Of a stretch of DNA of 50,333 bases, positions 8,166 to 38,204 are shown piece by piece. Position numbers and translations under genes: made by a program. The notes beneath the pieces were generated by a model. The model saw only the letters and a program-made list of their open reading frames with translations, did not search any database and had not been told where the DNA came from. Source of the stretch: Flavobacteriales bacterium (GTDB lineage: Bacteria; Bacteroidota; Bacteroidia; JACJYZ01); contig JAGQZQ010000013.1 of assembly GCA_020435415.1 (NCBI GenBank), forward strand, positions 1 to 50,333, read 5' to 3'. Position 1 is the first letter of the stretch. Every line of letters begins with the position of its first letter.

Positions 8166-8526
8166 TAACCCAGACTTCCAAAAAGCAATTTATTGAATAG
8201 TAAATCGACTCACTTGCATTAAATTACCTTAAAAGACAGAGAAATACAAGAAAAGTCAATGTGACGATTTTGTGAACGTAGCTTGAATCAACATCTAAAC
8301 TTCGGCTGATACGATAAAATTCTTTTGTTTGATTTATTAAGCCGGTGTAGGGTGATTTGGATTGGAGAAGCTCAGGAAGGGGGTAGGATTTTACCCTGTG
8401 TATGGATTAGTATTCTATGTAGATGACCATCCAAATGCTGCAACTCGCCATTTACCCTTTTTAAAGGGGAAGGTGATTCCGTAGATATATAGCAAGTAAG
8501 GATGTGTCATTATAATCGCCATAATC
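8166..8526. other. 361-bp intergenic region between divergent genes
   Basis: No gene, tRNA or conserved RNA is recognised. It holds a small hairpin GGGTA-N6-TACCC (8381-8396) and a near-palindrome CCCTTTTTAAAGGG (8455-8468), about 60 bp before the next start codon. It must contain promoters for both flanking genes, but no clear TAnnTTTG box was found. Confidence 0.5.
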
Positions 8527-9081
8527 ATGAAAACTACAATAAAAACGCTGAAGAGTCTGGTAAGGGCTTTAAGCATGTGTAAGGGAGATATGTGTGTCGT
8601 AGATATTATGCAACAGTCAGAAATCCCGGTATCAGAGGTCGAAGCATATTGTTCGTGGAACAGCGAACGATATACGAGAAACCTGATTGCAAAAACAGAA
8701 GATGTAGAAGTGTTGTTAATTTGTTGGGAGGCAGGACAGAGTTCTCCCATACATGATTTTGATTCTCATGAAGCATGGGTGCATCCCATATCCGGGCGGT
8801 TGAGGGAAGAAAAATTTATTCCAGGAATCGAAGGTGAAGGTCTGGTTAAAGCAGGATCCATGAGTGTATGGGAAAATGATTTTTCATACATGCGTAACGT
8901 TAGTGCGCACCGGTTTACCAATATTTTTGGTGCCAGAACCATAAGTATCGCGGTTTTTGCTCCACCGATCACCCACATCAGGGTGTATGATGAAGAAACC
9001 GGAACAGCGACCAGTCAGCCCGTCTCATACGATAAGACATTTGACCTTCTGAGCAAGGAGACCAGCACTCAAAGTGTATAG
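8527..9081 (+). CDS. Cysteine dioxygenase-like cupin with altered metal site
   Basis: The 184-residue product aligns with cysteine dioxygenase (CDO), which oxidises cysteine to cysteine sulfinate using Fe held by three His. The aligned core is SPIHDFDSHEAWVHPISGRL, then SAHRFTNIF, then ISIAVFAPPI and VYDEETG. Aligned without gaps, the HxH pair reads HDF, so the second iron His is Phe. The cross-linking Cys (Cys93 in mammals) is Ala. The SxHxY segment near the end reads SIAVF, losing His and Tyr. Only the first His and the third His (AHRFTN) remain. It is therefore CDO-fold, but probably not a normal CDO. It may bind a different metal or ligand, or be non-catalytic. Downstream genes are signalling proteins, so co-function is unclear. 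Confidence 0.7.
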   Translation: MKTTIKTLKSLVRALSMCKGDMCVVDIMQQSEIPVSEVEAYCSWNSERYTRNLIAKTEDVEVLLICWEAGQSSPIHDFDSHEAWVHPISGRLREEKFIPGIEGEGLVKAGSMSVWENDFSYMRNVSAHRFTNIFGARTISIAVFAPPITHIRVYDEETGTATSQPVSYDKTFDLLSKETSTQSV

Positions 9082-9234
9082 TTGACTGATCGCAAGTCTA
9101 ATCTCTGGTAACCTTCCCTCGTGATTAGTGCACCGGAATTCACCCTCCGAAACACGTAAACTACCTCCATGCAAAACATAGCAATGCCTCGTGCAACGTT
9201 AAACTAAGTACCTAAACCAATATCCATTTGCGTC

Positions 9235-9840
9235 ATGAAAAAGGTAGAAAATATGACGGTATACGTCGTCGACGATAACCGAACAAACCTGGAAGTTATC
9301 AAGCACAAACTCAGGGCAAACCTGGGTTGTAAGGTGCGGATTTTTACCACAGCAGAAGAATGTCTGCGAAATGTTGCCTGGCGGGCACCGGATCTGGTAT
9401 TGTCTGATTATAATCTGGATGCCAGTTACTCTCATAAGATGAATGGCGATCGGATGCTTGTTCAGTTGAAGGCACGGCATCCTAGTCTTCCTGTGATCAT
9501 GTATTCCTCAGTGAATAGTGTGGATTTAACAGTTAACCTGATGAAGCGGGGAGCAGTGGATTTTATTCCCAGGGACGAACGCTTTCTGAAAAGAATGGTA
9601 GGCGCGGTTTCCGGACAGATTGAATACATGCTCAGTGGATACAGGGAACAACGGGCTATTGCAGGTTTTGTTTCCCTGGTGGTGTTACTGCTGAGCGGAT
9701 TGGTTGTGGTAAGCTATGCGTTTACCAATTGGCTGCCGTACTACGTTGCATCCGCCCTGTTTGTTGGAATGGGCGGTGCATTGGTGATTCCGTCGATCAC
9801 CCTGTCATTTAAAAGGAGGTTTTTCCAGGCGGGACATTAG
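9235..9840 (+). CDS. Membrane-anchored receiver-domain protein (REC-TM) 1
   Basis: The 201-residue protein has an N-terminal response-regulator receiver domain (residues about 7-135): acidic pair Asp13-Asp14, phospho-acceptor Asp58 (LVLSDYNLD) and Ser91. Arg113 (FIPRDE) stands where Lys is usual. There is no DNA-binding or enzymatic output. Instead two hydrophobic helices follow (about 142-163 and 167-188), ending in a basic KRRFFQ tail. The product should therefore sit in the inner membrane with the receiver in the cytoplasm. It is the first of three consecutive REC-TM genes that share an EECL...PDxVLxDY...MNG pattern. A TCCATTTG box ends 4 bp before the ATG. Its partner is probably the hybrid kinase/Hpt system downstream. 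Confidence 0.85.
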   Translation: MKKVENMTVYVVDDNRTNLEVIKHKLRANLGCKVRIFTTAEECLRNVAWRAPDLVLSDYNLDASYSHKMNGDRMLVQLKARHPSLPVIMYSSVNSVDLTVNLMKRGAVDFIPRDERFLKRMVGAVSGQIEYMLSGYREQRAIAGFVSLVVLLLSGLVVVSYAFTNWLPYYVASALFVGMGGALVIPSITLSFKRRFFQAGH

Positions 9841-9876
9841 ATTTATGAACGGATTGTTGAACCAAACCTGTGCGTT

Positions 9877-10386
9877 ATGAAAAGAAAAGAAACATATAAC
9901 ATTTTTGTTGTGGAGGACTCGGATGTGTACCGGACTATTCTGATGGAGGCTCTGGGGCGCGCAAATGATAATGACTCGCAGTATGTACTCTACCCATTTT
10001 CATCCGGGGAAGATTGTATCAATGATCTTCATATTTCCCCCGATGTGGTGGTGTTGGATTATCATTTGAACGGGAATGGTTATGAATCCAATATGAATGG
10101 CCTGATGCTATTAAGGAAGATGAAGCAGCTCTGGCCAAATGTAGAGGCTATCGTTCTAAGTTGCCAAAAGGATGTAAGCATTGTAAAGGAGTTTGTTAGG
10201 TCCGGAATCAACAGGTATGTTAAAAAGGATGGTCCCGGAAGCGCAACAAAAGTGAAGGATCTGGTCGGGAATATCATTCATGCAAAAATGGTACACCAGA
10301 GAAGATTTCGGAAGTATGCCACATTGTTAATATTAGCAGTCATTACCGTCTGTGCAGCGTTTGCATGGACCTTCTTAACCAAATAA
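9877..10386 (+). CDS. Membrane-anchored receiver-domain protein (REC-TM) 2
   Basis: The 169-residue protein consists of a receiver domain (Glu13-Asp14, phospho-acceptor Asp61 in VVLDYHLN, Ser95, conserved Lys117) and one C-terminal transmembrane helix (about 147-167). The helix is preceded by a basic HQRRFRKY stretch that would keep the receiver on the cytoplasmic side. It resembles a tail-anchored protein with no separate output domain. It starts 36 bp after REC-TM 1 and ends 10 bp before REC-TM 3, so the three are almost certainly one transcript. The receiver is intact in all phosphorylation residues, unlike REC-TM 1, where the Lys is Arg. Confidence 0.87.
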   Translation: MKRKETYNIFVVEDSDVYRTILMEALGRANDNDSQYVLYPFSSGEDCINDLHISPDVVVLDYHLNGNGYESNMNGLMLLRKMKQLWPNVEAIVLSCQKDVSIVKEFVRSGINRYVKKDGPGSATKVKDLVGNIIHAKMVHQRRFRKYATLLILAVITVCAAFAWTFLTK

Positions 10387-10396
10387 AGGAGGAATT

Positions 10397-10948
10397 ATGG
10401 AAGCCATAGCAGCATACAGGCCTTTTCGGATAACTCAGGAAAGAGAGCGGGAAGCGGATTATAAGATATTCATTGTTGAAGATTCTGCTGCTGCAGGTGC
10501 TCTGCTGGCACATTATCTGGAGCGTTTACCCCGCTGTAAAGACCAAAGCAAACCACGTTGTGAAATTCACACATTTGAAAGTGGTGAGGAATGTTTGAAA
10601 CATCTTTATCTACACCCGGACATCATTGTGCTGGATTATTTTCTGGATGAGAAAAACGAATCAGCCATGGACGGTTTGGCTATTCTACGCCGTGTAAAGA
10701 AGGAATCGCCATCAACGGAAGTAATAATGATGAGCGGCCAACAAGAAGTTATGGTCGTTGCAGAATTGTTTAACAACGGAATCCGTGAATATATTTCAAA
10801 AGAACATGCCTGTCATGTGCGGGTTGAAGAGGCTGTTCTGAGAATATTTGAGGAGAAAAGACACAGAAAAAGACGACAGAATCAGATGATTATCGGAGGC
10901 GTTCTTTGCTTTATTGCCGGATTGATTTTGGGAGGATGGTTTGTGTAA
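10397..10948 (+). CDS. Membrane-anchored receiver-domain protein (REC-TM) 3
   Basis: This 183-residue protein has a ~20-residue charged N-terminal extension and a receiver domain (Glu28-Asp29, phospho-acceptor Asp80 in IVLDYFLDE, Ser113, Lys135). A very basic linker (EEKRHRKRRQ) leads to a single C-terminal membrane helix (about 162-182) that runs to the last residue. A canonical AGGAGG Shine-Dalgarno lies before its ATG, which is unusual in this phylum and suggests efficient translation within the operon. It is a paralogue of the two preceding genes: all share FxSGEECL, PDxxVLDYxL and MxGLxIL. The topology predicts a cytoplasmic receiver held at the inner membrane. Function is inferred only as a phosphorelay target or phosphate sink. 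Confidence 0.87.
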   Translation: MEAIAAYRPFRITQEREREADYKIFIVEDSAAAGALLAHYLERLPRCKDQSKPRCEIHTFESGEECLKHLYLHPDIIVLDYFLDEKNESAMDGLAILRRVKKESPSTEVIMMSGQQEVMVVAELFNNGIREYISKEHACHVRVEEAVLRIFEEKRHRKRRQNQMIIGGVLCFIAGLILGGWFV

Positions 10949-11089
10949 CATTGCATATCTTGGCATATGCTCCAGATAGGTTTATGAGGGTATGGAATGA
11001 TAACCATACTGATCTCAATTCGTAAATATATTAACCGGGCATGTACCATATTTGCAAATCCTCCATTTTCTCACCAAACAAATGAATAT

Positions 11090-11791
11090 ATGCTGTTAAG
11101 AACGGCCATTATTGACGACGATAAAGTGTTTTGCGATATACTCTCCCATTATATCAGCAAGATTGATTTAATGGAATTGGAGGCTATTTACCACGACATT
11201 CCCACCGTCTTGAATGATAATCGTGCATTCAAAAATCTGGATTTGGTATTTCTGGATGTTGAACTTCCGGGAATGACAGGAATTGAATTTCTGGAAACCC
11301 TTGAAAACCCGCCTCAGGTAATCATTGTTTCAGGAAAGAAGGAATACGGTGCAGATGCGTTTGATTATAACGTGTTGGACTACCTGAAAAAACCAGTTTC
11401 GTTTTCCCGTTTTGTAAAGGCCGTTAATAAGATTCAACAAAAAAATGCGGCACCGATGCCTGTGGATGGACTTTCCGACGGACACTTGTTTGTTCGTTGC
11501 GATGGCCTTTGGAAACGACTTGCATTTGAAGAAATACAATTGATCAAAGGGCATAATAATAGCGTTGTCGTTAAAACAGAAAAGGAAAGTTTTCATAGCC
11601 CAATGCGTATGAAAGAAATATTTGAACGATTACCCGCAGGTGCTTTCATGCAGGTTCACCGGTCCTACATTGTAAATCTGAATAAGATCGACAAAGTTGA
11701 TGGAGAAATTCTGGAAATCAATAAAAGAACCATACCTGTAAGCAGAACCTACATTCGTGAATTGTATGAACGATTGCATATAGAAAGGTAA
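11090..11791 (+). CDS. LytTR-family response regulator 1
   Basis: A receiver domain (Asp-Asp-Asp acidic cluster in AIIDDDKVF, phospho-acceptor Asp56 in LVFLDVELPG, Lys in YLKKPVSF) joins a C-terminal LytTR DNA-binding domain. The LytTR part contains EEIQLIKGHNNSVVVKT, the FMQVHRSYIVNLNKID signature and ISRTYI-like end (VSRTYIREL). The product is 233 residues, normal for the family. I chose ATG 11090 because the longer reading from 10997 adds a 31-residue non-homologous lead, and a CATATTTG promoter-like box (11047-11054) lies inside that lead. Its stop overlaps the next ATG by one base (TAATG). It is the only clear transcriptional output of this signalling locus. Confidence 0.9.
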   Translation: MLLRTAIIDDDKVFCDILSHYISKIDLMELEAIYHDIPTVLNDNRAFKNLDLVFLDVELPGMTGIEFLETLENPPQVIIVSGKKEYGADAFDYNVLDYLKKPVSFSRFVKAVNKIQQKNAAPMPVDGLSDGHLFVRCDGLWKRLAFEEIQLIKGHNNSVVVKTEKESFHSPMRMKEIFERLPAGAFMQVHRSYIVNLNKIDKVDGEILEINKRTIPVSRTYIRELYERLHIER

Positions 11792-12180
11792 TGGCTAATA
11801 AAGTTTACATATCAGAAAGCGATCTCATTTGTGTGATTTACCAGGGAAATCAAACCTATGAAAGTGTGACCTCCGTGACGCGACAAGTCATTGCGGCAGC
11901 AGAGAAACTCCGGTTGAGGCACAAGGAGGTGAAAATTCTGAATTCACTGAAGTACATCAAGGGTACAACAGCAGAATCCCGAAAGGCTGTGGCTGATGCA
12001 TTGATGCTGGATACGTATGATAAGATTGCCTTGTATGGCGGTAACATGTTTTTTAAATACCTCACCAAACTCATTGTGATCGCCACCAAGAAAAGTGCAA
12101 AAGTCAAATATTTTGATTCAAAGGAGACTGCCAGTAAATGGCTGCTGATGAATAAAGTCAATACAGCCCTGAAAGAATGA
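11791..12180 (+). CDS. SpoIIAA/STAS-like protein
   Basis: This 129-residue soluble protein has the alternating beta-alpha pattern of SpoIIAA/STAS-like domains: CVIYQGNQTYESV, a long helix rich in Lys/Arg, VKILNSLKYIKG, a helix, KIALYGGNMFFKYLTKLIV, and a closing strand VKYFDSKETASKWL. Members of this fold act as small regulatory partners, often as anti-sigma antagonists or membrane-associated scaffolds. There is no conserved phospho-Ser signature that I can assign. It is translationally coupled to the LytTR gene by a one-base overlap and lies 42 bp before the kinase gene. This suggests a role as an accessory switch in the same pathway. Family level is moderately sure; role is inferred. Confidence 0.7.
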   Translation: MANKVYISESDLICVIYQGNQTYESVTSVTRQVIAAAEKLRLRHKEVKILNSLKYIKGTTAESRKAVADALMLDTYDKIALYGGNMFFKYLTKLIVIATKKSAKVKYFDSKETASKWLLMNKVNTALKE

Positions 12181-12222
12181 GCTCGACGTAAACTGCACAA
12201 CCCAAATGAGGAGTCAACATCC

Positions 12223-14172
12223 ATGACCATCAAAACCACATATAGCGACCTTGAGCAATACAAGAAACGTGTGGAGCACCGGTTGAACGAACTTATACCG
12301 GTTTTTGCCAGGGCAACAATTGGTGACTTCTCAAAGGATGTTCCATTTACTGAAAACGAAGATGAGTTCTCGGAACTTTATGTAGGTGTTCAGGTAATGC
12401 TGGATGTTATCCGTGATAAACTTGGAAAGCTTGGTAAATGGAATGATGAACTTGCCGACAGAATTGCGGAAAAAACCAGGGCGTTTGAAGAAGCACAGTA
12501 TCTGACCCATATTGGAAGTTGGGAGTGTGATGTGGAAAAGGGGAAACTCGATCTGTCCGATGAAATGTACCGGATTTACGGACTCCAGAAACAAACCAAG
12601 CCTATTGATTACGGCACATTCCTGCAGTATGTTCATCCTGATGATCGTGAACGTGTTGGTGACTGTGTCAATCTTTCTCTTAAGTCTCTTAAACCATTCA
12701 ACATATTTTACCGGATTGTCAGAGATGATGGTTCTGTGCGCATTCTTCAGGGAAGAGGAAAGGTAGAAGCCGATTGGGATGGAAACCCGGTACGTGTTCT
12801 GGGTACTGGTCAGGATGTCACCGATTTGAAACGTGTGGAAGATGAGTTGATTTATGCCAGGAATAACCTGGAGAAAAAGGTGAAGGAACGAACGACCAAG
12901 CTTAAAAGGGCTCTGGAAGACCTTCGTAAAGAGATGGCCAGGAGGGAAGAGGTGCAAGCCAAGGCAGAAAGGTTGGCGGCTATTGTTGAAGGTACCTACG
13001 ATGCCATTTTGAGCAAAACCCTGGATGGCACCATAACCAGTTGGAATAAGGCTGCACAGCGACTTTATGGGTATTCTCCTAAAGAAGCCATTGGGAAAAA
13101 TGTTGCGATCATCGTGCCTGATGAAAGGAAGGACGAGTTGGAGAACATCCTGTTGCGTCTAAGCCAGGGGAAGATGATCAAACGGCTGGAGACGATCAGA
13201 AGGCACAAAAACGGACACCTCGTGTATGTTAGTCTTACGATATCTCCAATTTACAACAGTGCCGGTGAGGTGATCGGGGCATCCAGTATCGCCAAAGATA
13301 TTACCCGGGAGGTTGCAGCACAGCATCAAATGAAAAAGAGCCAGATAAGGCTTAATAACTTCATGAACGCGGCCAGGGATGTATTTGCCATATATGACCA
13401 CGAACTTCGCCTGGTTGATATAAACAAAGCGGGTGTAAAACTGCTTGGAGAAAGAAGCAAGAAAAATCTGATCGGGAAGCATATGAATGAGATTTTCCCT
13501 TCCATAAAAGGAACCGAGCATCAGGCATTGTACGAGAAGGTCCTGTTAAAAGGACGCAGCAAAAGACTGGAGACTTTTCTCTCTCATGATGTTTTCGGTA
13601 ACCGGTTTTTTGCCATTGAGATATTTAAGCTTGATGAAGGAATTGGGGTGATAAGCCGTGACATAACACAGCAAAAGCAAAGTGATCAGGCCCTAAACGA
13701 AAGTGAGCGGAAGTACCGAACCCTGGTGGAAACGATGAATGAAGGAGTTCTTATCGTCAATAATGATGACGTGATAGAATTTGTCAATGAAACGTTTTGC
13801 AGGCAATCTGGTTATCCAATGGATGAACTGGTGGGCCAGAAGGCCATGGATTTATTGCTGGATGAAGATGAACGTGAGCGAATGAAGCATATGATTCTGA
13901 AGCGTCAGGATGGAGAGGCCAGTCAGTATGAGATCAGAATAAAAACAAAATGGGGACAGAAATTATGGATGCTTGTTAATGGTTCTCCTGTGTATAGCAA
14001 TGCCAATGAGGTTATAGGTTCGGTGGGTTTGCATACCAACATTAATCAACGTAAGCAACATGAGGCGGAGCTGGATGCATTGGCCAGGTTTCCGGCTGAG
14101 AACCCTAGTCCTGTTATGCGGTTCTCTATGAGGGGGCAGGCATTGATATATGTCAACCGTGCATCTCGTTGA
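12223..14172 (+). CDS. Multi-PAS hybrid histidine kinase, N-terminal part (frameshifted)
   Basis: These 649 residues begin with a HAMP-like helical segment (about 15-80, with no membrane helix). Four PAS domains follow: about 95-205 (IGSWECDVEKG...HPDDRERV), 245-365 (TYDAILSKTLDGTITSWN), 370-480 (ARDVFAIYDHELRLVD) and 490-605 (MNEGVLIVNNDDVIEFVN). The start of a fifth PAS is visible (ENPSPVMRFSMRG...YVNRAS). The frame then hits TGA. The fifth PAS resumes in the next frame immediately downstream, so this is one kinase gene of about 1226 codons interrupted by a single-base shift between about 14155 and 14172. It should be cytosolic and sense a small ligand or redox state. It has GAGGAG upstream of the ATG. 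Confidence 0.85.
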   Translation: MTIKTTYSDLEQYKKRVEHRLNELIPVFARATIGDFSKDVPFTENEDEFSELYVGVQVMLDVIRDKLGKLGKWNDELADRIAEKTRAFEEAQYLTHIGSWECDVEKGKLDLSDEMYRIYGLQKQTKPIDYGTFLQYVHPDDRERVGDCVNLSLKSLKPFNIFYRIVRDDGSVRILQGRGKVEADWDGNPVRVLGTGQDVTDLKRVEDELIYARNNLEKKVKERTTKLKRALEDLRKEMARREEVQAKAERLAAIVEGTYDAILSKTLDGTITSWNKAAQRLYGYSPKEAIGKNVAIIVPDERKDELENILLRLSQGKMIKRLETIRRHKNGHLVYVSLTISPIYNSAGEVIGASSIAKDITREVAAQHQMKKSQIRLNNFMNAARDVFAIYDHELRLVDINKAGVKLLGERSKKNLIGKHMNEIFPSIKGTEHQALYEKVLLKGRSKRLETFLSHDVFGNRFFAIEIFKLDEGIGVISRDITQQKQSDQALNESERKYRTLVETMNEGVLIVNNDDVIEFVNETFCRQSGYPMDELVGQKAMDLLLDEDERERMKHMILKRQDGEASQYEIRIKTKWGQKLWMLVNGSPVYSNANEVIGSVGLHTNINQRKQHEAELDALARFPAENPSPVMRFSMRGQALIYVNRASR

Positions 14173-15901
14173 TTGTCTTGATCGGAGCCATGAACTCCGT
14201 AAACAATGGAACTCTTTGATCAATAAGGTTTATATCCGTAATCAGGTTACAAAGGAGGAAATGGTTATTGAGAACCGTAATTACCTGTTTACCATTGTGC
14301 CGATAAGGGATGGGCATTATGTAAACCTTTACGGTACAGATATTACGATGGCGAAGCAGGCAGAAGAAGAGGTAAAACGTCTCCTTTTTGTTTTGTCTCA
14401 GACCGATAATTCTATTATGATTGCCGACGCCGATGGTACTATACGTTGGGTAAACGCAGCATTTAAGCGTATCAGTGGGTATTCTCTGGAGAATGTGAAG
14501 GGAACGCATGGAGAGATACTCAGGCATGGTAAATCAACAGGCCTGGATCCCAGGCACCCATATTTCAAAAGGATGATCAAGACACGACGCTCGGTGTCGT
14601 ATGAATGCAAGAACTTTGCGAAGTCCGGGAAAGAGTATTGGACCCTGACCACCATTACTCCGGTATTGAATGACAAGGACGAGATTGAGGGTATTGTGGC
14701 CATGGATTCTGACGTGACCGAAAAGAAAAAGGCAGAGAAAGCATTGCTGAAGGCGAAGAAAATTGCGGAATCCTCTGCCAAGGCCAGGGAGATGTTCCTT
14801 GCCAATATGAGTCATGAGATCCGGACGCCGATGAACGCCATCATGGGTATCATTCAATTGTTAAGGGAAACCTCTATCAATTCGCAACAAAATTATTATT
14901 TAAAGTCCATGGAATTTGCGGGGGAGAACCTGATGCGAATTATCGATGACGTATTGGATTTATCTAAAATTGAATCCGGAAAATTAAGTATAGAAGAGCA
15001 GGGGTTTGATATAGTGGAAATGGTCCGTGACCTTGTAAACTCTGTGGCATACCGGGCGCATGAGCAAGGTATTGAGATGAAACTAGACCTCGACATCGAC
15101 ATTCCACCGGTGGTGGTGGGAGACCCTGTTCGTATCAATCAGATACTTCTCAACCTGGTCAGTAATGCGATCAAATTTACACATGAAGGAGGTGTGCAGC
15201 TGTCTGTGAAGGTGCATTCACAGGATCAGGATAAATGTCTTCTTCGCTTTATGGTGGCAGATTCGGGAATTGGTATTCCTAAAGAGAAACAGGAACAAAT
15301 TTTTGAAGAGTTTGAACAGGCACATAAGGGAAATACAAGAAAATATGGCGGTACCGGACTTGGCCTGTCGATCGTGAAACGACTTACAAGCATGATGGAT
15401 GGTCGGATGAAATTGCAGAGTAAAGAAGGTAAAGGCACAACGTTTACCATTGATCTTCCTTTCAGAATAACTGATAAACCTTTGAGTGAAAATGCAACAG
15501 AGGATATGGGAAGATTACGGGATGTTCTTTCTGATAAATGCATTCTCCTGGTTGAAGACAATAAGCTTAATCAAATGGTTGCATCGGATTTTCTGGCTTC
15601 TATGGGAATAAAGGTCAGTATTGCCAATGATGGACAGGAGGCTATGGAGTGGCTGAGAAAACAACAGGCAGATCTTGTTTTGATGGACATCCAGATGCCT
15701 CGTATGGATGGTTATGAAACCACCAGAATGATAAGGGAAGAATTGAAAAGTCCTGTGCCAATCATCGCAATGACAGCGCATGCCATCAATGGGGAAGAAC
15801 GTCGTTGTAAAGCGGCGGGAATGAATGACTACATCAGTAAACCATTGAAGAAAATAACACTATACAAGAAAATAGCTCAATTGATCTCTAAAAAAACATA
15901 A
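14150..15901 (+). CDS. Multi-PAS hybrid histidine kinase, C-terminal part (frameshifted)
   Basis: This piece continues the kinase from the previous reading frame. It has the rest of PAS 5 (RNYLFTIVPIRDGHYVNLYG) and PAS 6 (about 80-190, NSIMIADADGTIRWVN). The HisKA domain carries phospho-accepting His222 (NMSHEIRTPMNAIMG). The HATPase domain has N box NLVSNAIKF, G1 DSGIGIP and G2 GGTGLGLSIVKRL. A C-terminal receiver follows with Asp513 (LVLMDIQMPRMDG) and Lys in YISKPL. All catalytic motifs are intact. The apparent ATG at 14150 is inside the broken PAS domain and is unlikely to be a natural start. It ends 4 bp before the Hpt gene. If the shift is real, only this half could make a kinase, without most of the sensor. 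Confidence 0.88.
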   Translation: MSTVHLVDCLDRSHELRKQWNSLINKVYIRNQVTKEEMVIENRNYLFTIVPIRDGHYVNLYGTDITMAKQAEEEVKRLLFVLSQTDNSIMIADADGTIRWVNAAFKRISGYSLENVKGTHGEILRHGKSTGLDPRHPYFKRMIKTRRSVSYECKNFAKSGKEYWTLTTITPVLNDKDEIEGIVAMDSDVTEKKKAEKALLKAKKIAESSAKAREMFLANMSHEIRTPMNAIMGIIQLLRETSINSQQNYYLKSMEFAGENLMRIIDDVLDLSKIESGKLSIEEQGFDIVEMVRDLVNSVAYRAHEQGIEMKLDLDIDIPPVVVGDPVRINQILLNLVSNAIKFTHEGGVQLSVKVHSQDQDKCLLRFMVADSGIGIPKEKQEQIFEEFEQAHKGNTRKYGGTGLGLSIVKRLTSMMDGRMKLQSKEGKGTTFTIDLPFRITDKPLSENATEDMGRLRDVLSDKCILLVEDNKLNQMVASDFLASMGIKVSIANDGQEAMEWLRKQQADLVLMDIQMPRMDGYETTRMIREELKSPVPIIAMTAHAINGEERRCKAAGMNDYISKPLKKITLYKKIAQLISKKT

Positions 15902-15905
15902 TGTT

Positions 15906-16256
15906 ATGGGACTGGATGTGCAAAGACTCAAACAATACCTCGAATGTGATGATGCATTCGTGGTGATGGTGATTGACCGGTTTATGAAGGAATCACGGGA
16001 AATCATAGAACACCTCGAGCAAAGGCTTATCGAAGAAGATGTGAATGGAATCAGAAGTTCTGCTCATAAAATGCTTAGCTCTACACGTATCATGGGTATG
16101 GACAACGTGACGCGTCTTTTCGAAAATATTGAAACCGATGCTGAGAAAGGAAAACCCATTAATCAGCTTCAGGGCGAGATTGAGCAGGCGAGAGAATCAT
16201 GGTTGCAGATGATGGAAGAGATGGAGAAGGTAAAGGAAGAATTATCCGGCGCATAG
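15906..16256 (+). CDS. Histidine phosphotransfer (Hpt) domain protein
   Basis: This 116-residue all-helical protein has the Hpt signature SAHKMLSSTRIMG, with phospho-accepting His54 and the conserved Lys two residues later. It has no catalytic domain of its own. In a phosphorelay it would take the phosphoryl group from the hybrid kinase receiver, whose gene ends 4 bp upstream, and pass it to other receivers. The stand-alone receivers in the same locus (three REC-TM proteins and the LytTR regulator) are the obvious recipients. The ATG at 15906 gives a normal Hpt length; no other in-frame start fits. It closes the signalling locus. Confidence 0.88.
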   Translation: MGLDVQRLKQYLECDDAFVVMVIDRFMKESREIIEHLEQRLIEEDVNGIRSSAHKMLSSTRIMGMDNVTRLFENIETDAEKGKPINQLQGEIEQARESWLQMMEEMEKVKEELSGA

Positions 16257-16390
16257 TTCAAGGGATTTATCCGCTTGTTTCGATAGCCTTTCGCCTTGCA
16301 ATTCGGTTCTTCGGTGGAACCAGTGAATATTGTCTTTCCCGTACCGGGTCAAGCACCCCAATCTGATCCTTTTCTGAATTTCCCAATCAT

Positions 16391-16452
16391 CCGATAAAGC
16401 TCATTATCGGGTATTTAGCCGATATTTTTATTTATCGGGTATTTATCCGATA
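16391..16452. promoter_or_regulatory. Operator array: five alternating CCGATA/TATCGG half-sites at 14-bp steps
   Basis: Hexamers start at 16391 (CCGATA), 16405 (TATCGG), 16419 (CCGATA), 16433 (TATCGG) and 16447 (CCGATA), exactly 14 bp apart and alternating in orientation. They form two 20-bp near-identical palindromes, TATCGGGTATTTAGCCGATA and TATCGGGTATTTATCCGATA, plus one extra half-site. The last half-site overlaps a -7-like box (GATATTTG, 16449-16456), which ends 4 bp before the satD start. That position predicts repression, possibly by SatD itself. Confidence 0.8.
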
Positions 16453-16460
16453 TTTGGTGT

Positions 16461-17081
16461 ATGACAAGTGTGATCACCGGAGATATCATCCATTCAAGAA
16501 CTTTGCAGAATCAGGACCCCTGGCTGATTCCTCTCAAGAAATTATTCAACGAATACGGAAAGACGCCAAAAGTATGGGAAATCTATCGGGGCGATAGCTT
16601 TCAGGTAGAAGTGAAGGATCCTGCAGATGCATTGCTCACAGCAATCCGGATAAAGGCCACAGTGAAATGTGTGAAGGGAATAGATGTGCGAATGGGAATA
16701 GGAATAGGGGGGAAGGATTATGAAGCTAACAGGGTATCCGAATCAAACGGCGAAGCGTTCGTGCATTCCGGCGAAAGGCTTGAAAGTATGAAGAAGGAGA
16801 AGCAAAACCTTTCGGTGAAAACCCCGTGGCCAGCCTTTGATGAGGAAATCAATCTCCACATACGTCTTGCATTGATTGCCATGGATAACTGGAGTCAGGG
16901 AGCTGCTGAGTTGATGACAATATCATTGGCAAACCGCACTTTAGGGCAACAGGAAATAGCGGAAAAGTTGGGCATAGCGCAATCATCTGTAAGTGAAAGG
17001 CAAACACGGGCGCACCATGCGGAGATCATGGATCTTGAAGCATGGTATCGAGAGAAAATAAATAAGTTGATACGTCAATGA
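16461..17081 (+). CDS. SatD family protein with C-terminal helix-turn-helix
   Basis: The 206-residue product has the SatD N-terminus: ITGDIIHSRTL, then VWEIYRGDSFQVEV, ALLTAIRIKA and IDVRMGIGIG. This region resembles nucleotide-cyclase-like ferredoxin folds. It is followed by a DNA-binding helix-turn-helix at about 160-185 (LGQQEIAEKLGIAQSSVSER). It is paired with a DUF3307 membrane protein through an ATGA start/stop overlap, an arrangement seen elsewhere for these families. The five-site CCGATA array ends 8 bp before its start codon, so autoregulation through the HTH is the simplest reading. The short leader leaves no room for a normal ribosome-binding site. The molecular role of SatD is poorly defined (first linked to acid tolerance in streptococci). 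Confidence 0.82.
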   Translation: MTSVITGDIIHSRTLQNQDPWLIPLKKLFNEYGKTPKVWEIYRGDSFQVEVKDPADALLTAIRIKATVKCVKGIDVRMGIGIGGKDYEANRVSESNGEAFVHSGERLESMKKEKQNLSVKTPWPAFDEEINLHIRLALIAMDNWSQGAAELMTISLANRTLGQQEIAEKLGIAQSSVSERQTRAHHAEIMDLEAWYREKINKLIRQ

Positions 17082-17788
17082 TGCTGCTCGTAAAACTTTT
17101 TCTGGCGCATTTGATCGGTGACTTCATATTGCAACCCGATCAATGGATACGGGAAAAAGAGGAGAAGAGATTAAGGTCTCCCAAACTTTACCTGCATACA
17201 CTGCTTCACGGAGCCCTCGCCTGGTTGTTTGTATGGGAGTTTGCTTTCTGGTTGCCCGCAGTAGTCTTAGCTATTTCCCACGGTCTGATAGACACCGTCA
17301 AGCTGAGCTTTCAAAAAGATAACCGGAAGCGGGAGTGGTTTATGATCGACCAGTGTCTTCACCTCGTTGTTCTGATTGTTGTATGGTATGCATATACCAG
17401 GCCGTTGTTGTGGGAAATAAACTGGTTTACAGATGACGTGCTCATTTATATAACGGCAGTTGTGATGCTGACACTCCCGGCCTCTGTTTGTATCAAAGTA
17501 TTTATCTCAAAATGGGCACCCCAGACAGAAGAGCATAATGATGAGTCGCTTCAGGATGCGGGGAAATATATAGGAATACTTGAGCGGCTGTTCGTTCTTG
17601 CTTTTGTAGTAACAGAGCATTGGGAGGCCATCGGCTTTCTGATTGCGGCCAAATCCGTATTTCGATTCGGTGACCTTCGCCAATCTAAAGACCGCAAACT
17701 CACAGAGTATATTCTGATTGGAACCTTGTTGAGTTTTGCGATGGCATTGACAACAGGCGTTCTTGTGAGGTACTGCATCGCTCATTAG
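17078..17788 (+). CDS. DUF3307 family membrane protein
   Basis: This 236-residue polytopic membrane protein has about six or seven hydrophobic helices. The DUF3307 hallmark is at the N-terminus, LFLAHLIGDFILQPDQW, followed by the HTLLHGALAWLF helix and the ISHGLIDTVKLSF segment with its conserved His and Asp. A second His-containing helix, FMIDQCLHLVVLIV, follows. The conserved His/Asp residues inside membrane helices suggest a metal- or lipid-handling role, but no activity is known. It overlaps satD by four bases (ATGA), implying translational coupling and control by the CCGATA array. Confidence 0.88.
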   Translation: MMLLVKLFLAHLIGDFILQPDQWIREKEEKRLRSPKLYLHTLLHGALAWLFVWEFAFWLPAVVLAISHGLIDTVKLSFQKDNRKREWFMIDQCLHLVVLIVVWYAYTRPLLWEINWFTDDVLIYITAVVMLTLPASVCIKVFISKWAPQTEEHNDESLQDAGKYIGILERLFVLAFVVTEHWEAIGFLIAAKSVFRFGDLRQSKDRKLTEYILIGTLLSFAMALTTGVLVRYCIAH

Positions 17789-23695: not shown

Positions 23696-24439
23696 TTATA
23701 TGCCTCTGCTTTCCATTATTTCAATAAACTCGGCGCGTTTTCTGCGGGCCAGGTCAACAGTGGAACCATTGTTCATTTTTATGAAGCCGCCATCTGTCTT
23801 TTGAAATGAGTCAATTTTATTCAGGTTTATGAGGTGGGATTGATGGCAACGGTAGAATTCCCGTCCGAGCATGTTCTCATATTTGCCTATGTTTTGTGAT
23901 ACCAACAGTTTTTTTCCATTGTCCAGGTGGAAGGTGGAGTATTTGCCATCGGCCTCGATGCGAACAATATTTGAAACAGGAATGAAATGAATGCTTTCCG
24001 TGGTATGTATTGTTAATGTCGAGGGTGTTGTGCTTTCAATATTATCCAGAAGTTTATCCAGTCGGTCAGCGTGATTAAGATTCCTGTTTTGCCTGATTCT
24101 TCCTATGGTGTCAGTCAGTTCATCTATGTCTATGGGTTTGAGCAGATAATCGAAGGCGCTGAATTTAAAGGTCTTGATAGCATAATGGCCATATGCTGTG
24201 CAGAATACCACTTCGAAATTCCTGGTATTTACCTGCTTTAATACCTCGAATCCGCTACCATCCGGCATCGCGATATCCAGGAATACGAGTTCGGGTTCTA
24301 ACGAGTTTATTTTCAGGATCGCATCAGAAACGGTATGGGCTACCCCCACAATGTTCGTTTCCTGGCAACATTCTTTCAGCATCCAGGTGAGCGAGTCTGT
24401 GGCGGATCGTTCATCATCAACCAATAGTATTTTAAGCAT
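23696..24439 (-). CDS. LytTR-family response regulator 2
   Basis: The 247-residue product has a receiver domain (Asp8-Asp9, phospho-acceptor Asp55 in LVFLDIAMPDG, Lys in YLLKPID) and a LytTR DNA-binding domain with IVRIEADGKYSTFHL, FYRCHQSHLINLNKID and VDLARRKR. This is the ordinary AlgR/LytR form, which binds direct repeats to control a few genes. No sensor kinase gene of the usual LytS type lies within view on either side. It is only 19 bp upstream of the Crp/Fnr gene, so it may belong to the sulfur-regulation cluster, or be an orphan. Confidence 0.92.
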   Translation of the reverse strand: MLKILLVDDERSATDSLTWMLKECCQETNIVGVAHTVSDAILKINSLEPELVFLDIAMPDGSGFEVLKQVNTRNFEVVFCTAYGHYAIKTFKFSAFDYLLKPIDIDELTDTIGRIRQNRNLNHADRLDKLLDNIESTTPSTLTIHTTESIHFIPVSNIVRIEADGKYSTFHLDNGKKLLVSQNIGKYENMLGREFYRCHQSHLINLNKIDSFQKTDGGFIKMNNGSTVDLARRKRAEFIEIMESRGI

Positions 24440-33635: not shown

Positions 33636-36600
33636 ATGCAAGGATATATTCGATCAATTTTTCTTTTTCTCGTCATTTTTTTATCAGCCATGCAAATGCA
33701 GGCTCAAAAAAGAAGGTTCTCTGCAGAACCGGCGAAATTCTTTGAGGAGATGCATCAGTTTCTGACGGAGACCAATCAGGATCAGGCGGATGATATCATG
33801 GCTGAATTCAGGGTGATGTGGGACATGGGACCCCTGGATGAAAAGGAACAGGAAAAGATTTACGAAAAGGCAAACAAGGCCCTCGAGAAAAGACTGAAAG
33901 ATGCCCCGGTTCAGATCAAACAGCGGTATGGTCCGGATACCAAAAAGATCAATGAAATTCACCGGGAAGTCATCTACCTTACCTCTAATAAAATGCTGGA
34001 TAAGCGGATGAAGGCATATCCGCACTTTATGGCTTACATGTACACCCTCATCAATTTTGTGATTACCGAACAACCCGAATCCAGTTTTGATTCTTTCATG
34101 GCCAGCATCATGAAGATGCTGGAGAACCGTACCGCCCGGAAATTCAATTCCTTTCTGGAAGTTTGCGATAATCTTTTCTCCGAGAATGCACTTTATGCTT
34201 CCCATACAACCCGGTGGATTGCAAGCAACAACGATTACGTGTTTGACTATGACTCATTGCCCAAGATCGTTTTCAAAGGAGCAACACTGACCTGCTATAC
34301 AAAGCGTGATAGTGCGGTGATACTGAATACCCAAGGCACCTTGTATCCTACCGAAAATACTTTTATGGGGCAGGGAGGGACCGTAACATGGCAAAGAGCA
34401 GGAATCCCGGTGGATGAGGTTAAAGCCGAACTGAGCAATTACAGCTTTTCAATCAATAGTGCCCATTACAAGGCTGATTCAGTAACGTTTTACAACAAAA
34501 AGTACTTTGATTTCCCATTGCTTGGAAGCCTTGAGGAAAAAGTGCTGGCAGATGTAACCGAAGAAAAAGCATCCTATCCAAGGTTTGTTTCTTACCAGAC
34601 AGAATTCCAGATCAAGGATATTATCAAGAATGTGGATTATATCGGCGGGTTTTCCATGAACGGAGGAAAAGTGATCGGGTCAAGTAACGCTGTGAATGAT
34701 GCCCGGCTCATTTTTCGACGGGAAGGACAACAGTTCCTCATTGCCAATGGCAAATCCTTTGTTATCAGAGAAGATCGCATCGTTTCGGATTACTGTGCCG
34801 TTACCATATACCTTAAAAATGATTCCATATTTCACCCCGGACTGTCTTTCAAACTTGCGACGGATGACCGTGAGTTGACTTTGTACCGGGAAGACCGGGG
34901 TGTTTCGCAAAGTCCATACACCAATACCTTTCATGATGTGGACATGAACTTTGATGCACTCTACTGGAAGATAGATGAGCCTCTGATAGATTTCCGACCG
35001 CTGAAAGGAAGTACACGTGATAAGGCGATGTTTGAGTCTACCAATTATTATAAGGAATCCCATTTTGACAGACTTCGTGGTATAGACAATAGCCACCCCC
35101 TGATTTATATCAAGAAATATGTGGATAACTATGGCGAAGTGGTGCATACCAAAGTGCTGGCTGAACAAATGCATATGGCAGAGAGCCAGGTAAGAGCTAT
35201 GCTTATCAATTTGTCTATCGAGGGATTTTTGATTTACGACTTTGACGATGAAACAGCAATCGTGAAAGACAAGCTTTATCGCTATCTCAATGCCAAGGCA
35301 GAGAAGGTGGATTACGACGTTTTACAATTCAACTCGGTGATTAGCGGCGCTAGCAATGCAACTTTAAGTCTTCTGAACTACGACCTGAAGATGAGGGGCG
35401 TGGCTCGTATTCTTCTTAGCGATTCACAAAGTGTTTATATCTATCCGCAAGATCAGGAGCTGACCATGTCCGAAAACAGAGATTTCAAGTTTTCAGGAAA
35501 GGTCAATGCCGGCAGATTCGAATTCTTTGGAAAGGATTTCTCCTTTGAATATGATATGTTCAAGATTAATATGGCCAACATCGATTCCATGCGGATGTCG
35601 GTGGAGACAGGAAAGACAGATGAATATGGCAGACCCGAGCTGCAAAGAGTGCGCACTGTTATTCAGGCGCTGGAAGGAGAGCTGTTGATCGACCATCCGG
35701 CCAACAGATCAGGAGTGAAGCCATTTAAACAATACCCGGTATTTAAAAGCTTTAAGGATTCTTATGTTTTCTATGATAAGCCAAGTATACAACATGGTGT
35801 CTATACAAAGGACCGGTTTTATTTCCATCTTGAGCCATTTGCAGTTGACAGCTTGAGCACGTTTGATCCGGAGGGCCTTGAACTGAAAGGGAGATTTGTG
35901 TCTGCCGGAATTTTCCCGGAGTTTGAGGAACAACTTACGGTACAACCGGACTATTCATTAGGCTTTGTGCGAAATACTCCAACACCAGGCTTTCCTGCAT
36001 ATGGAGGGAAAGGGCAATATTATAATGTGATTGATCTCAGCCATAAAGGGCTTAGGGGAGATGGAAAACTAGAGTATGTGACTTCCACTTCAATTTCCAA
36101 GGAGTTTATTTTTCTGCCCGATTCCATGAATACGATTGCGCAAACCTTTGACAACAAGGAACAGGGTAAACCCCTTGAGTTTCCACAGGCTCATGGAGAT
36201 AGTGTGAAGCTTCACTGGAGGCCATACAAGGATATGATGACCATCAAGGATCGTGCAACACCCCTTGAGTTCTTTAATAAGCAAGCTACCTTGAAAGGCT
36301 TGGCAACATTGCAACCTACCGGGCTCACCGGTGGTGGAACCATTACCTTCGGAGAAGCGGAACTTGACTCTAAGTTGATGAAGTATAATCAAAATGACTT
36401 CACTGCGGATACAGCGGATTTCAGACTTGCGGCATTGGAGTTGGATGCATTGGCTTTCTCTACGGTGAACGTAAACGCAAAGGTTGATTTTATTGAGCGT
36501 AAGGCAGTCTTCAAATCAAACGGAGGAGGATCCGTTGTGGAATTCCCGGTGAATATGTATGCTTGTTATATGGACCAGTTTACCTGGTATATGGATCAGG

Positions 36601-38204
36601 GTGAGATCGAAATGAGTGCCGGAAAGAATGAAGTGATTTCTACCGATGCAGGGGAGGATGTGAAGCTCGAAGGATCCCGGTTCATATCTTATCACCCCAA
36701 GCAGGATTCACTCAGCTGGGTTGCTCCACGGGCCAGATATAGCCTGAAAACGAATATTATTGAGGCTGAAGACGTGAAATTGATTGCCGTGGCTGATGCA
36801 ATCATATATCCAGGCAATGGTAGGGTGATTGTTGAGAAAAAGGCTAAAATGAATCAGCTTGACAGCGCGAGGGTTCTTGCCAACAAGATTACCAAGTACC
36901 ATAAGATTTACAATGCACAGGTTAATATCGCCGGAAAGAAATCCTATTCCGGGTCCGGAGATATCGATTATGTGGATGAACTGGAAAACAAACAGACCAT
37001 TCACCTCGATAATATTTCGGTAGACTCGACGCAGCAAACTGTTGCTCATGGTGAGATTGCTGCTGATGCCGGATTCTCCCTCAGCCCGTTTTTTGATTAC
37101 AAAGGCAGGGTTGAGTTGGCGGCAAGCAACCAGTATCTTACCTATGCAGGAGCGTGTCAGATCAAACATGAGTGCGCTCAGATAGGCAAGAGTTGGTTCA
37201 AGTTCAAGTCTGAAATTAATCCGGGAGATATATATATACCTGTGGATAGCGGAACTGTGAGCGAAAACAATATCAAGTTGGTGTCCGGAATTTTTATGGG
37301 GGGAGATTCTACAGCGGTGTATTCTGCTTTCCTCACCCCATTAAAGGATCGGCGAGATGATCCGGTGGTGCAAGCCTCAGGATTTCTGTATTATCATAAG
37401 GAATCCGGTGAATACCGGATCGGGTCCAAGGAGAAATTGGTGGAACAGAATCTTCCGGGAAATTATATTACCCTGAATACCAAAGATTGTATCACATATG
37501 GTGAGGGTAAGTTAGATCTGGGTGTAAACCTGGGACATGTGAAAGTTAATGCTGCCGGCAGTGTAACACATTATCTGATCCCCGATTCTGTGTTGGTTCA
37601 AACAACCATGTCATTTGATTTCCATTTCTCCAATAATGCCGAAGATAAAATGACGGCGGACCTTAAAACGTTTGCCGAACTTACACCAGTGGATCTCAGT
37701 AAGAAATCCTTTGAGAAGGCTGCCAGGGAATATGTGCCGCAAAAGGATGCAGACAAGATGTTTTCGGAAATTAACCTCTACGGTGCTCCAAAAAAATGGC
37801 CGTCTGACCTTGTACACAATTTCTACTTTGCAGATGTGAAAATGAAGTTCGACAAGAATACCCATACGTTTGTGTCCCTGGGAGATCTTGGTCTGGCCAG
37901 TATCAGGAAAGATGCTTTGAATAAGTATTATGGCGGTTGTATGGAATTTGAGAAGCGCCGCAGCGGTGACCGGTTTAATGTTTACCTGGAGGCTGAAGGT
38001 AATACATGGTACCTGTTTATTTATCAGCGCGGACTTATGCAGATCATGTCTTCCAATGTAGAGTTCAATAAAATACTGATGGAGTTGAAGCCGGATGATC
38101 GCAGGGCCAAAACAGAGAAGAATGAAGGGCCTTTCCAATATATGCCGCTAACTTCCGAACGGAAGCGACGTGAAATATTGGAGAAGTGCGGTATTATCGA
38201 ATAA
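33636..38204 (+). CDS. Large exported protein of unknown function, beta-rich
   Basis: The 1522-residue product has a signal peptide (SIFLFLVIFLSAMQMQAQ). Its N-terminal helical region (about 30-190) is followed by long beta-rich stretches. A winged-helix-like helical insert lies at about 497-555 (HTKVLAEQMHMAESQVRAML, then IEGFLIYDFDDETAI). From about 1000 the repeated pattern of short strands (SLKTNIIEAEDVKLIAVADA, VIVEKKAKMNQLDSA) looks like the OstA/LptA-type periplasmic jellyroll. I know no named domain for the whole, and there is no T9SS sorting domain. It begins 2 bp after prmA, and plsY follows 34 bp later. An envelope-biogenesis role is plausible but unproven. Confidence 0.75.
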   Translation: MQGYIRSIFLFLVIFLSAMQMQAQKRRFSAEPAKFFEEMHQFLTETNQDQADDIMAEFRVMWDMGPLDEKEQEKIYEKANKALEKRLKDAPVQIKQRYGPDTKKINEIHREVIYLTSNKMLDKRMKAYPHFMAYMYTLINFVITEQPESSFDSFMASIMKMLENRTARKFNSFLEVCDNLFSENALYASHTTRWIASNNDYVFDYDSLPKIVFKGATLTCYTKRDSAVILNTQGTLYPTENTFMGQGGTVTWQRAGIPVDEVKAELSNYSFSINSAHYKADSVTFYNKKYFDFPLLGSLEEKVLADVTEEKASYPRFVSYQTEFQIKDIIKNVDYIGGFSMNGGKVIGSSNAVNDARLIFRREGQQFLIANGKSFVIREDRIVSDYCAVTIYLKNDSIFHPGLSFKLATDDRELTLYREDRGVSQSPYTNTFHDVDMNFDALYWKIDEPLIDFRPLKGSTRDKAMFESTNYYKESHFDRLRGIDNSHPLIYIKKYVDNYGEVVHTKVLAEQMHMAESQVRAMLINLSIEGFLIYDFDDETAIVKDKLYRYLNAKAEKVDYDVLQFNSVISGASNATLSLLNYDLKMRGVARILLSDSQSVYIYPQDQELTMSENRDFKFSGKVNAGRFEFFGKDFSFEYDMFKINMANIDSMRMSVETGKTDEYGRPELQRVRTVIQALEGELLIDHPANRSGVKPFKQYPVFKSFKDSYVFYDKPSIQHGVYTKDRFYFHLEPFAVDSLSTFDPEGLELKGRFVSAGIFPEFEEQLTVQPDYSLGFVRNTPTPGFPAYGGKGQYYNVIDLSHKGLRGDGKLEYVTSTSISKEFIFLPDSMNTIAQTFDNKEQGKPLEFPQAHGDSVKLHWRPYKDMMTIKDRATPLEFFNKQATLKGLATLQPTGLTGGGTITFGEAELDSKLMKYNQNDFTADTADFRLAALELDALAFSTVNVNAKVDFIERKAVFKSNGGGSVVEFPVNMYACYMDQFTWYMDQGEIEMSAGKNEVISTDAGEDVKLEGSRFISYHPKQDSLSWVAPRARYSLKTNIIEAEDVKLIAVADAIIYPGNGRVIVEKKAKMNQLDSARVLANKITKYHKIYNAQVNIAGKKSYSGSGDIDYVDELENKQTIHLDNISVDSTQQTVAHGEIAADAGFSLSPFFDYKGRVELAASNQYLTYAGACQIKHECAQIGKSWFKFKSEINPGDIYIPVDSGTVSENNIKLVSGIFMGGDSTAVYSAFLTPLKDRRDDPVVQASGFLYYHKESGEYRIGSKEKLVEQNLPGNYITLNTKDCITYGEGKLDLGVNLGHVKVNAAGSVTHYLIPDSVLVQTTMSFDFHFSNNAEDKMTADLKTFAELTPVDLSKKSFEKAAREYVPQKDADKMFSEINLYGAPKKWPSDLVHNFYFADVKMKFDKNTHTFVSLGDLGLASIRKDALNKYYGGCMEFEKRRSGDRFNVYLEAEGNTWYLFIYQRGLMQIMSSNVEFNKILMELKPDDRRAKTEKNEGPFQYMPLTSERKRREILEKCGIIE

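Follow-up and report, generated by a model that had tools for sequence, protein, structure and literature searches.

A response regulator usually has a DNA-binding or enzymatic domain at its end, unless it is a receiver on its own. Three consecutive genes of a Flavobacteriales bacterium (assembly GCA_020435415.1), here called RT1, RT2 and RT3, raise the question of how a receiver might act whose only further element is a C-terminal membrane helix. The genes head an operon of eight frames on the plus strand (9235 to 16256; Table 1) within contig JAGQZQ010000013.1, positions 1 to 50,333; this entire stretch of 50,333 nucleotides is referred to as the window. Open reading frames were called mechanically, and hydrophobic segments were defined by the Kyte-Doolittle (KD) mean of 19-residue windows.

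Table 1 Features of the receiver-TM operon (positions refer to the window)
Feature	Position	Strand	Basis
RT1, receiver and two C-terminal hydrophobic helices, 201 aa	9235..9840	+	Pfam REC 2.2e-16
RT1 membrane helix 1 (predicted), residues 141-159	9655..9711	+	KD mean 2.77
RT1 membrane helix 2 (predicted), residues 174-192	9754..9810	+	KD mean 1.83
RT2, receiver and one C-terminal membrane helix (predicted), 169 aa	9877..10386	+	Pfam REC 2.8e-11
RT2 membrane helix (predicted), residues 149-167	10321..10377	+	KD mean 2.36
RT3, receiver and one C-terminal membrane helix (predicted), 183 aa	10397..10948	+	Pfam REC 4e-13
RT3 membrane helix (predicted), residues 165-183, reaches C-terminus	10889..10945	+	KD mean 2.36; AF2 pLDDT ~95-98
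REC-LytTR DNA-binding response regulator	10997..11791	+	Pfam LytTR 1.3e-20, REC 8e-15
SpoIIAA-like/DUF7793 protein, 129 aa	11791..12180	+	Pfam SpoIIAA-like 1e-6
Hybrid histidine kinase, PAS-repeat half, no membrane helix	12223..14172	+	Pfam PAS; KD scan
Hybrid histidine kinase, PAS-HisKA-HATPase-REC half	14150..15901	+	Pfam HisKA, HATPase_c, REC
Free-standing Hpt protein	15906..16256	+	Pfam Hpt 3e-9

The three receivers were recognised by the Pfam model Response_reg (PF00072) with 44.0-60.4 bits at a cut-off of 30.2, and the receiver fold is present in the AlphaFold models of RT1 and RT3. A DNA-binding or enzymatic output domain was not found, as Pfam returned REC only and NCBIfam receiver-containing models only; in particular, no sigma-54 AAA+ or Fis-type DNA-binding domain follows the receiver in the Pfam results. 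Pfam and the hydrophobicity scan thus bear out the coordinates and the content of the original prediction, three adjacent receivers followed by nothing but hydrophobic helices. That prediction had also held the phospho-acceptor Asp to be kept in all three proteins, and it is found as D58 in RT1, D61 in RT2 and D80 in RT3. The set of acidic pair, phospho-Asp, Thr/Ser and Lys is complete in RT2 (Lys117) and RT3 (Lys135), and complete except for the Lys in RT1, which carries Arg113 instead, again as predicted. Among 104 distinct receiver-TM proteins the phospho-Asp and the second acidic residue are each conserved in 103, Ser/Thr in all 104 and the Lys in 103, the single Arg being that of RT1. A base-call error does not explain it, because a paralogue elsewhere in the genome also has Arg. 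Of the 41 receiver matches of this genome RT1-RT3 were the only helix-ending ones found, the 30 best-ranked matches having been checked singly (none of the 30 ends in a helix) together with three lower-ranking short frames.

Insertion of the C-terminal helices is favoured by the Wimley-White octanol sums, which amount to about +10.1 and +5.5 for the two helices of RT1, +10.9 for RT2 and +8.6 for RT3. The same Kyte-Doolittle scan detected no hydrophobic segment in the LytTR, SpoIIAA-like, kinase and Hpt proteins encoded alongside. The basic residues noted ahead of the helices at this locus proved to be a family trait: over the 104 receiver-TM proteins the 12 residues that precede the helix have a mean net charge of +3.0, as opposed to +0.4 beyond it, and therefore the receiver is predicted to be cytoplasmic. 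RT2 and RT3 fit the predicted tail-anchored type, with a single C-terminal helix, a basic flank on the receiver side and no other hydrophobic segment; RT1, having two helices, is not strictly of this type. A sortase-type tail was dropped as an explanation, since the sequence starts without a hydrophobic signal and its domain is of a cytoplasmic type. We infer from hydrophobicity and models that the helices of RT1-RT3 are membrane-inserted. Since this topology evidence comprises only hydrophobicity and models, one could also imagine that the helices stay out of the membrane and pack into a soluble oligomer, but the hydrophobicity of the 19-residue windows (KD 2.4-2.8, octanol sums +8.6 to +10.9) and the strong positive flanks on the receiver side make this highly improbable.

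The AlphaFold model of RT3, built from a 57-row alignment, has a mean pLDDT of 91 and contains one unbroken helix from residue 139 to 182 (pLDDT 92-98); in the model alpha5 and the membrane helix therefore form one rod. The same rod spans residues 117-162 in the AF2 model of RT1, followed by a less certain helix at 169-199 (pLDDT ~45-71). The two helices of RT1 are predicted to form a hairpin with both ends in the cytoplasm, which would bring the FKRRFF tail back inside. Between the conserved Lys and the start of the helix the central 80% of the 104 receiver-TM proteins have 30-34 residues; counted in the same way, the distance is 28 in RT1, 32 in RT2 and 30 in RT3. Juxtamembrane residues are conserved within three orthologous groups, in which the membrane core is variable. 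The motifs read NKRYKxGV in Prolixibacteraceae, SELHK..TIN.AYK.TI in Chitinophagaceae and A..YK.L in the third group; the groups were chosen by short motifs in or near this region, so the motif letters are no independent evidence. Small-xxx-small or GxxxG motifs are not enriched in the helix (3 observed versus 2.6 expected), and a dimerising GxxxG helix was dropped as an explanation.

A continuous rod invites the idea that the helix itself carries the signal, i.e. that phosphorylation shifts the dimerisation or tilt of the alpha5-TM rod, and that a further membrane protein reads this change, either within the bilayer or on its far side. The unbroken helix in the RT1 and RT3 models and the fixed spacing would suit such an output, as would the short conserved tails that follow the helix in some orthologous groups, one of which (group A) was itself selected by its PGW tail. 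Nevertheless, a variable membrane core without enrichment of small-xxx-small motifs, the end of RT3 at its helix with no tail left, and the existence of close relatives that have no helix altogether speak against it, and we regard it as improbable.

The architecture is not confined to this locus. A search of 60 genomes of the class with RT2 found family members in most of them. In 40 regions read from this search 35 receiver-TM genes were present, including RT1-RT3, the rest lying in 20 further genomes; a single-protein RT2 search of genome contigs found no relative. For a wider survey the pattern K[YEQ][GK]A[YFV][DT]Y[VI][VSL]K, which is confined to the receiver, was run on 84,980 species genomes. 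It was made from a 9-row alignment, as a 30-row alignment was too diverse for a pattern search. The search gave 518 relatives, and analysis was confined to the 80 best of them. A receiver-TM architecture was found in 75 of the 80 matched frames, or in 76 with locus L076 read by hand, so that proteins combining a receiver with a C-terminal TM helix, which the original prediction had proposed to look for, do exist elsewhere. As the pattern covers the receiver only, the helix in 76 of these 80 frames points to more than chance. All of the best 80 come from records named as Bacteroidota, among them Prolixibacter, Sunxiuqinia, Puteibacter, Taibaiella, Edaphocola, Chitinophagaceae, Flavobacteriales, Fulvivirga and MAGs, and a second class of this phylum has members as well (L158, L161). 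Loss of an output domain by truncation was dropped as an explanation, since more than 100 homologues end likewise; those relatives that are longer (~450-500 residues) belong to the NtrC type and end differently. Five helix-less members (L052:10507-11004, L068:6247-6708, L051:8421-8858, L144:7947-8438, L168:1459-1893) end in a short basic-hydrophobic tail, e.g. KSLLKSIFSFL or RKPSLLKSIFNFF, which is possibly amphipathic and membrane-binding.

The EECL and MNG patterns shared by RT1-RT3 had been taken as a sign of a local family expansion. The patterns are indeed shared, but GEECL and MNG are motifs found throughout the family and are therefore no sign of local duplication. Mutual identity of the three proteins is 25-31% (36% in the best local RT2-RT3 alignment) and no higher than with proteins of other families, and RT1 stands elsewhere in the tree. 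A recent local triplication was dropped on these identities and the separate tree positions; RT1-RT3 are instead ancient and distinct members of a single family. In a tree of 126 receivers, whose root was not inferred so that gains and losses are indistinguishable, the TM label needs at least four changes on starred branches, and a single origin of the TM tail was dropped for this reason. By parsimony, with many forks unresolved, the label requires 15 changes versus 42.5 with shuffled labels. RT2 forms a pair with a soluble receiver of locus L034, and one of L035 falls into the group of RT3; at each of these loci a hybrid kinase, an Hpt and a SpoIIAA-like/DUF7793 protein are encoded as well. 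With the nearest relatives of RT2 and RT3 being soluble and lying in matching operons, the helix has repeatedly been gained or lost while the module was conserved. RT1 lies apart, and its nearest relative in the same genome is a soluble receiver on contig C40 (L219:4921-5331), the paralogue with Arg in place of Lys. The gene next to this soluble receiver encodes a hybrid kinase that is a membrane protein and has an Hpt domain fused to it.

Within the operon the REC-LytTR regulator is the sole transcriptional output. The SpoIIAA-like protein downstream of it has counterparts of the same type in the syntenic loci L034 and L035, and DUF7793 occurs in L038. The two kinase frames overlap at 14150-14172, where a PAS domain is split. 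In the kinase homologues of L061 and L056 both frame edges align to one chain only a few residues apart, and judging from this alignment the two frames apparently represent one frameshifted gene, the split being either an assembly error or a real frameshift. The operon Hpt is one of four Hpt domains found by a search of the genome. No match to the Bacteroidota promoter consensus was present in 8301-16600. Just downstream of the operon, a SatD-family gene is followed by a DUF3307 gene with a four-base overlap (16461-17788). The window further contains a second REC-LytTR regulator on the minus strand (23696-24439) and a frame of 1522 residues (33636-38204) with no Pfam match at E 1e-5.

To describe the genomic context, runs of genes on the same strand were collected with up to four genes on each side. 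The loci are not independent, and therefore counts refer to members made non-redundant at 70%. An Hpt, free or fused to a kinase, is present in the run of 28 of 58 non-redundant members versus 4 of 329 distant control ORFs; the recurrence beside Hpt proteins and hybrid kinases that the original prediction had named as a check was thus seen. Hpt and kinase occur together in the run of 22 of the 58. In 22 of 26 loci a free Hpt lies directly upstream of the receiver-TM gene. For roughly half of the members the run contains neither kinase nor Hpt. No recurrent gene for a membrane partner adjoins the family; the neighbours other than kinase and Hpt have unrelated housekeeping roles, and those that recur (e.g. 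aminotransferase, S41 peptidase, pantothenate kinase, MFS, IlvD) are each conserved in one lineage. Two loci have a special composition. In L040 an H-NOX gene (11653-12192; HNOB, 5e-48) stands beside a hybrid kinase, a LytTR regulator and two receiver-TM genes, and its H-NOX-like haem-NO protein is a possible gas-sensing input to the module. In L036 (4779-5981) a hybrid kinase is followed by two genes for SiaC partner-switch proteins, in alternation with one receiver-TM gene and one that encodes a receiver only.

Among the 23 non-redundant kinases in the runs, 19 are hybrids with a receiver of their own and 16 have no predicted membrane helix. Such soluble kinases, together with the tight operon linkage of receiver-TM genes to Hpt, would be in keeping with receivers that mainly dock kinase and Hpt at the membrane for assembly of the relay, with docking regulated by phosphorylation. 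A docking site had been proposed in the original prediction, beside a local phosphate sink, and both roles are plausible in principle. Nevertheless, the other 7 of the 23 kinases are themselves membrane proteins and the receiver-TM is still kept, e.g. in L057 and L058, which also led us to drop a strict pairing of soluble kinases with tethered receivers. Furthermore, soluble receivers take the same place in the syntenic operons L034 and L035, and we give the docking role little chance.

A role as phosphate sinks would leave RT1-RT3 without partners: they would drain or buffer the phosphate of the Hpt, the LytTR regulator would respond more slowly or only to strong signals, and the helix would hold the receivers near a membrane source of the signal. 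Sinks are known among single-domain regulators, e.g. DifD with the phosphatase DifG (PMC12802240). At this locus the missing output domain and the presence of three receivers beside one Hpt and one LytTR regulator fit such a role, and the Arg of RT1 could uncouple phosphorylation from switching. The basis for an uncoupling of this kind is given by mutants of CheY Lys109. Arg is also a common replacement at the place of the conserved Lys in pseudo-receivers (PMC12632262). From its sequence RT1 may accept phosphate but switch poorly, which makes a sink role easier to accept for RT1 alone than for all three. In the family, however, many operons comprise a hybrid kinase, an Hpt and a single receiver-TM that has no further response regulator beside it (L105, L114, L129, L152, L061), so that there is no second regulator to drain, and a sink would need neither a conserved juxtamembrane segment nor a fixed spacing between Lys and helix. 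We consider the sink role unlikely.

The reading that we prefer, with about even confidence, is that RT1-RT3 stand at the end of an Hpt relay as single-domain response regulators tethered to the membrane, where they act by phosphorylation-dependent contacts. The operon kinase, which has no predicted membrane helix, would pass phosphate via its own receiver to the free-standing Hpt, and the Hpt would hand it to the LytTR regulator and to RT1-RT3. Phosphorylation would alter the alpha4-beta5-alpha5 face of the RT receivers. As alpha5, the conserved juxtamembrane segment and the part within the bilayer would make up a single helix, this face would have a fixed position on the cytoplasmic side of the inner membrane and could there bind or release a membrane partner. 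The linkage of RT1-RT3 to the Hpt is visible in the operon; phosphotransfer between them and an output by protein contact are what we infer. A soluble precedent is the single-domain response regulator EpsW, whose target EpsZ is a membrane enzyme that it activates directly (PMC12802240). Where an operon has only one receiver-TM, this speaks for the receiver-TM as the last receiver in the relay. As helix-less relatives hold the same place, the output probably comes from the receiver surface and the helix sets the location; fixed spacing and juxtamembrane conservation argue against a loose tether. This tethered-contact reading is weakened because no partner gene recurs beside the family, because kinase and Hpt are missing from the run in about half of the members, because the kinase frame is split in this assembly, and because three receivers in one operon are more than a single output requires. 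The farther-reaching proposal of a phylum-wide output class, in which alpha5 becomes a TM helix and, with no output domain involved, transmits phosphorylation at the end of an Hpt relay into the inner membrane or through it, appears improbable to us.

Membrane-bound transcription factors of the ToxR/CadC type have a regulatory domain held by a following TM helix, as in RT1-RT3. Unlike these, RT1-RT3 have no DNA-binding domain or periplasmic sensor, and in the cytoplasm they have a phospho-receiver. Among solved receivers the closest are of the NtrC family (NtrC1, NtrX, LuxO), with NtrC1 ranking first both by profile (1.2e-22) and by fold (top match 4l4u); in contrast to that family RT1-RT3 lack an AAA+ or DNA-binding domain and have a membrane helix where the linker would begin. 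Like EpsW and DifD, which are of the CheY/Spo0F type, consist of a receiver only, are phosphorylated by kinase or Hpt and act by contact or as a sink (PMC12802240), RT1-RT3 have no further domain, but those proteins are soluble, whereas RT1-RT3 have a C-terminal membrane helix that continues from alpha5. Within open-licence papers on membrane-bound or tail-anchored receivers we found nothing relevant except four archaeal proteins with another anchor. In these, MetOD3-REC-MetOD2, a response regulator likewise has a predicted membrane anchor, but it lies in another domain and the four members belong to one genus (PMC5847659), whereas the RT type is tail-anchored and widespread in Bacteroidota. 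The receiver-TM architecture thus appears undescribed in the open-licence literature, although an earlier mention is possible.

The receiver-TM architecture looks like a widespread way of bringing a phosphorylation signal to the inner membrane. Seen in more than 100 sampled Bacteroidota proteins and linked to Hpt, it would let cytosolic phosphorelays act on the envelope, and the compact operons of hybrid kinase, Hpt and receiver-TM make the question testable in cultured species.
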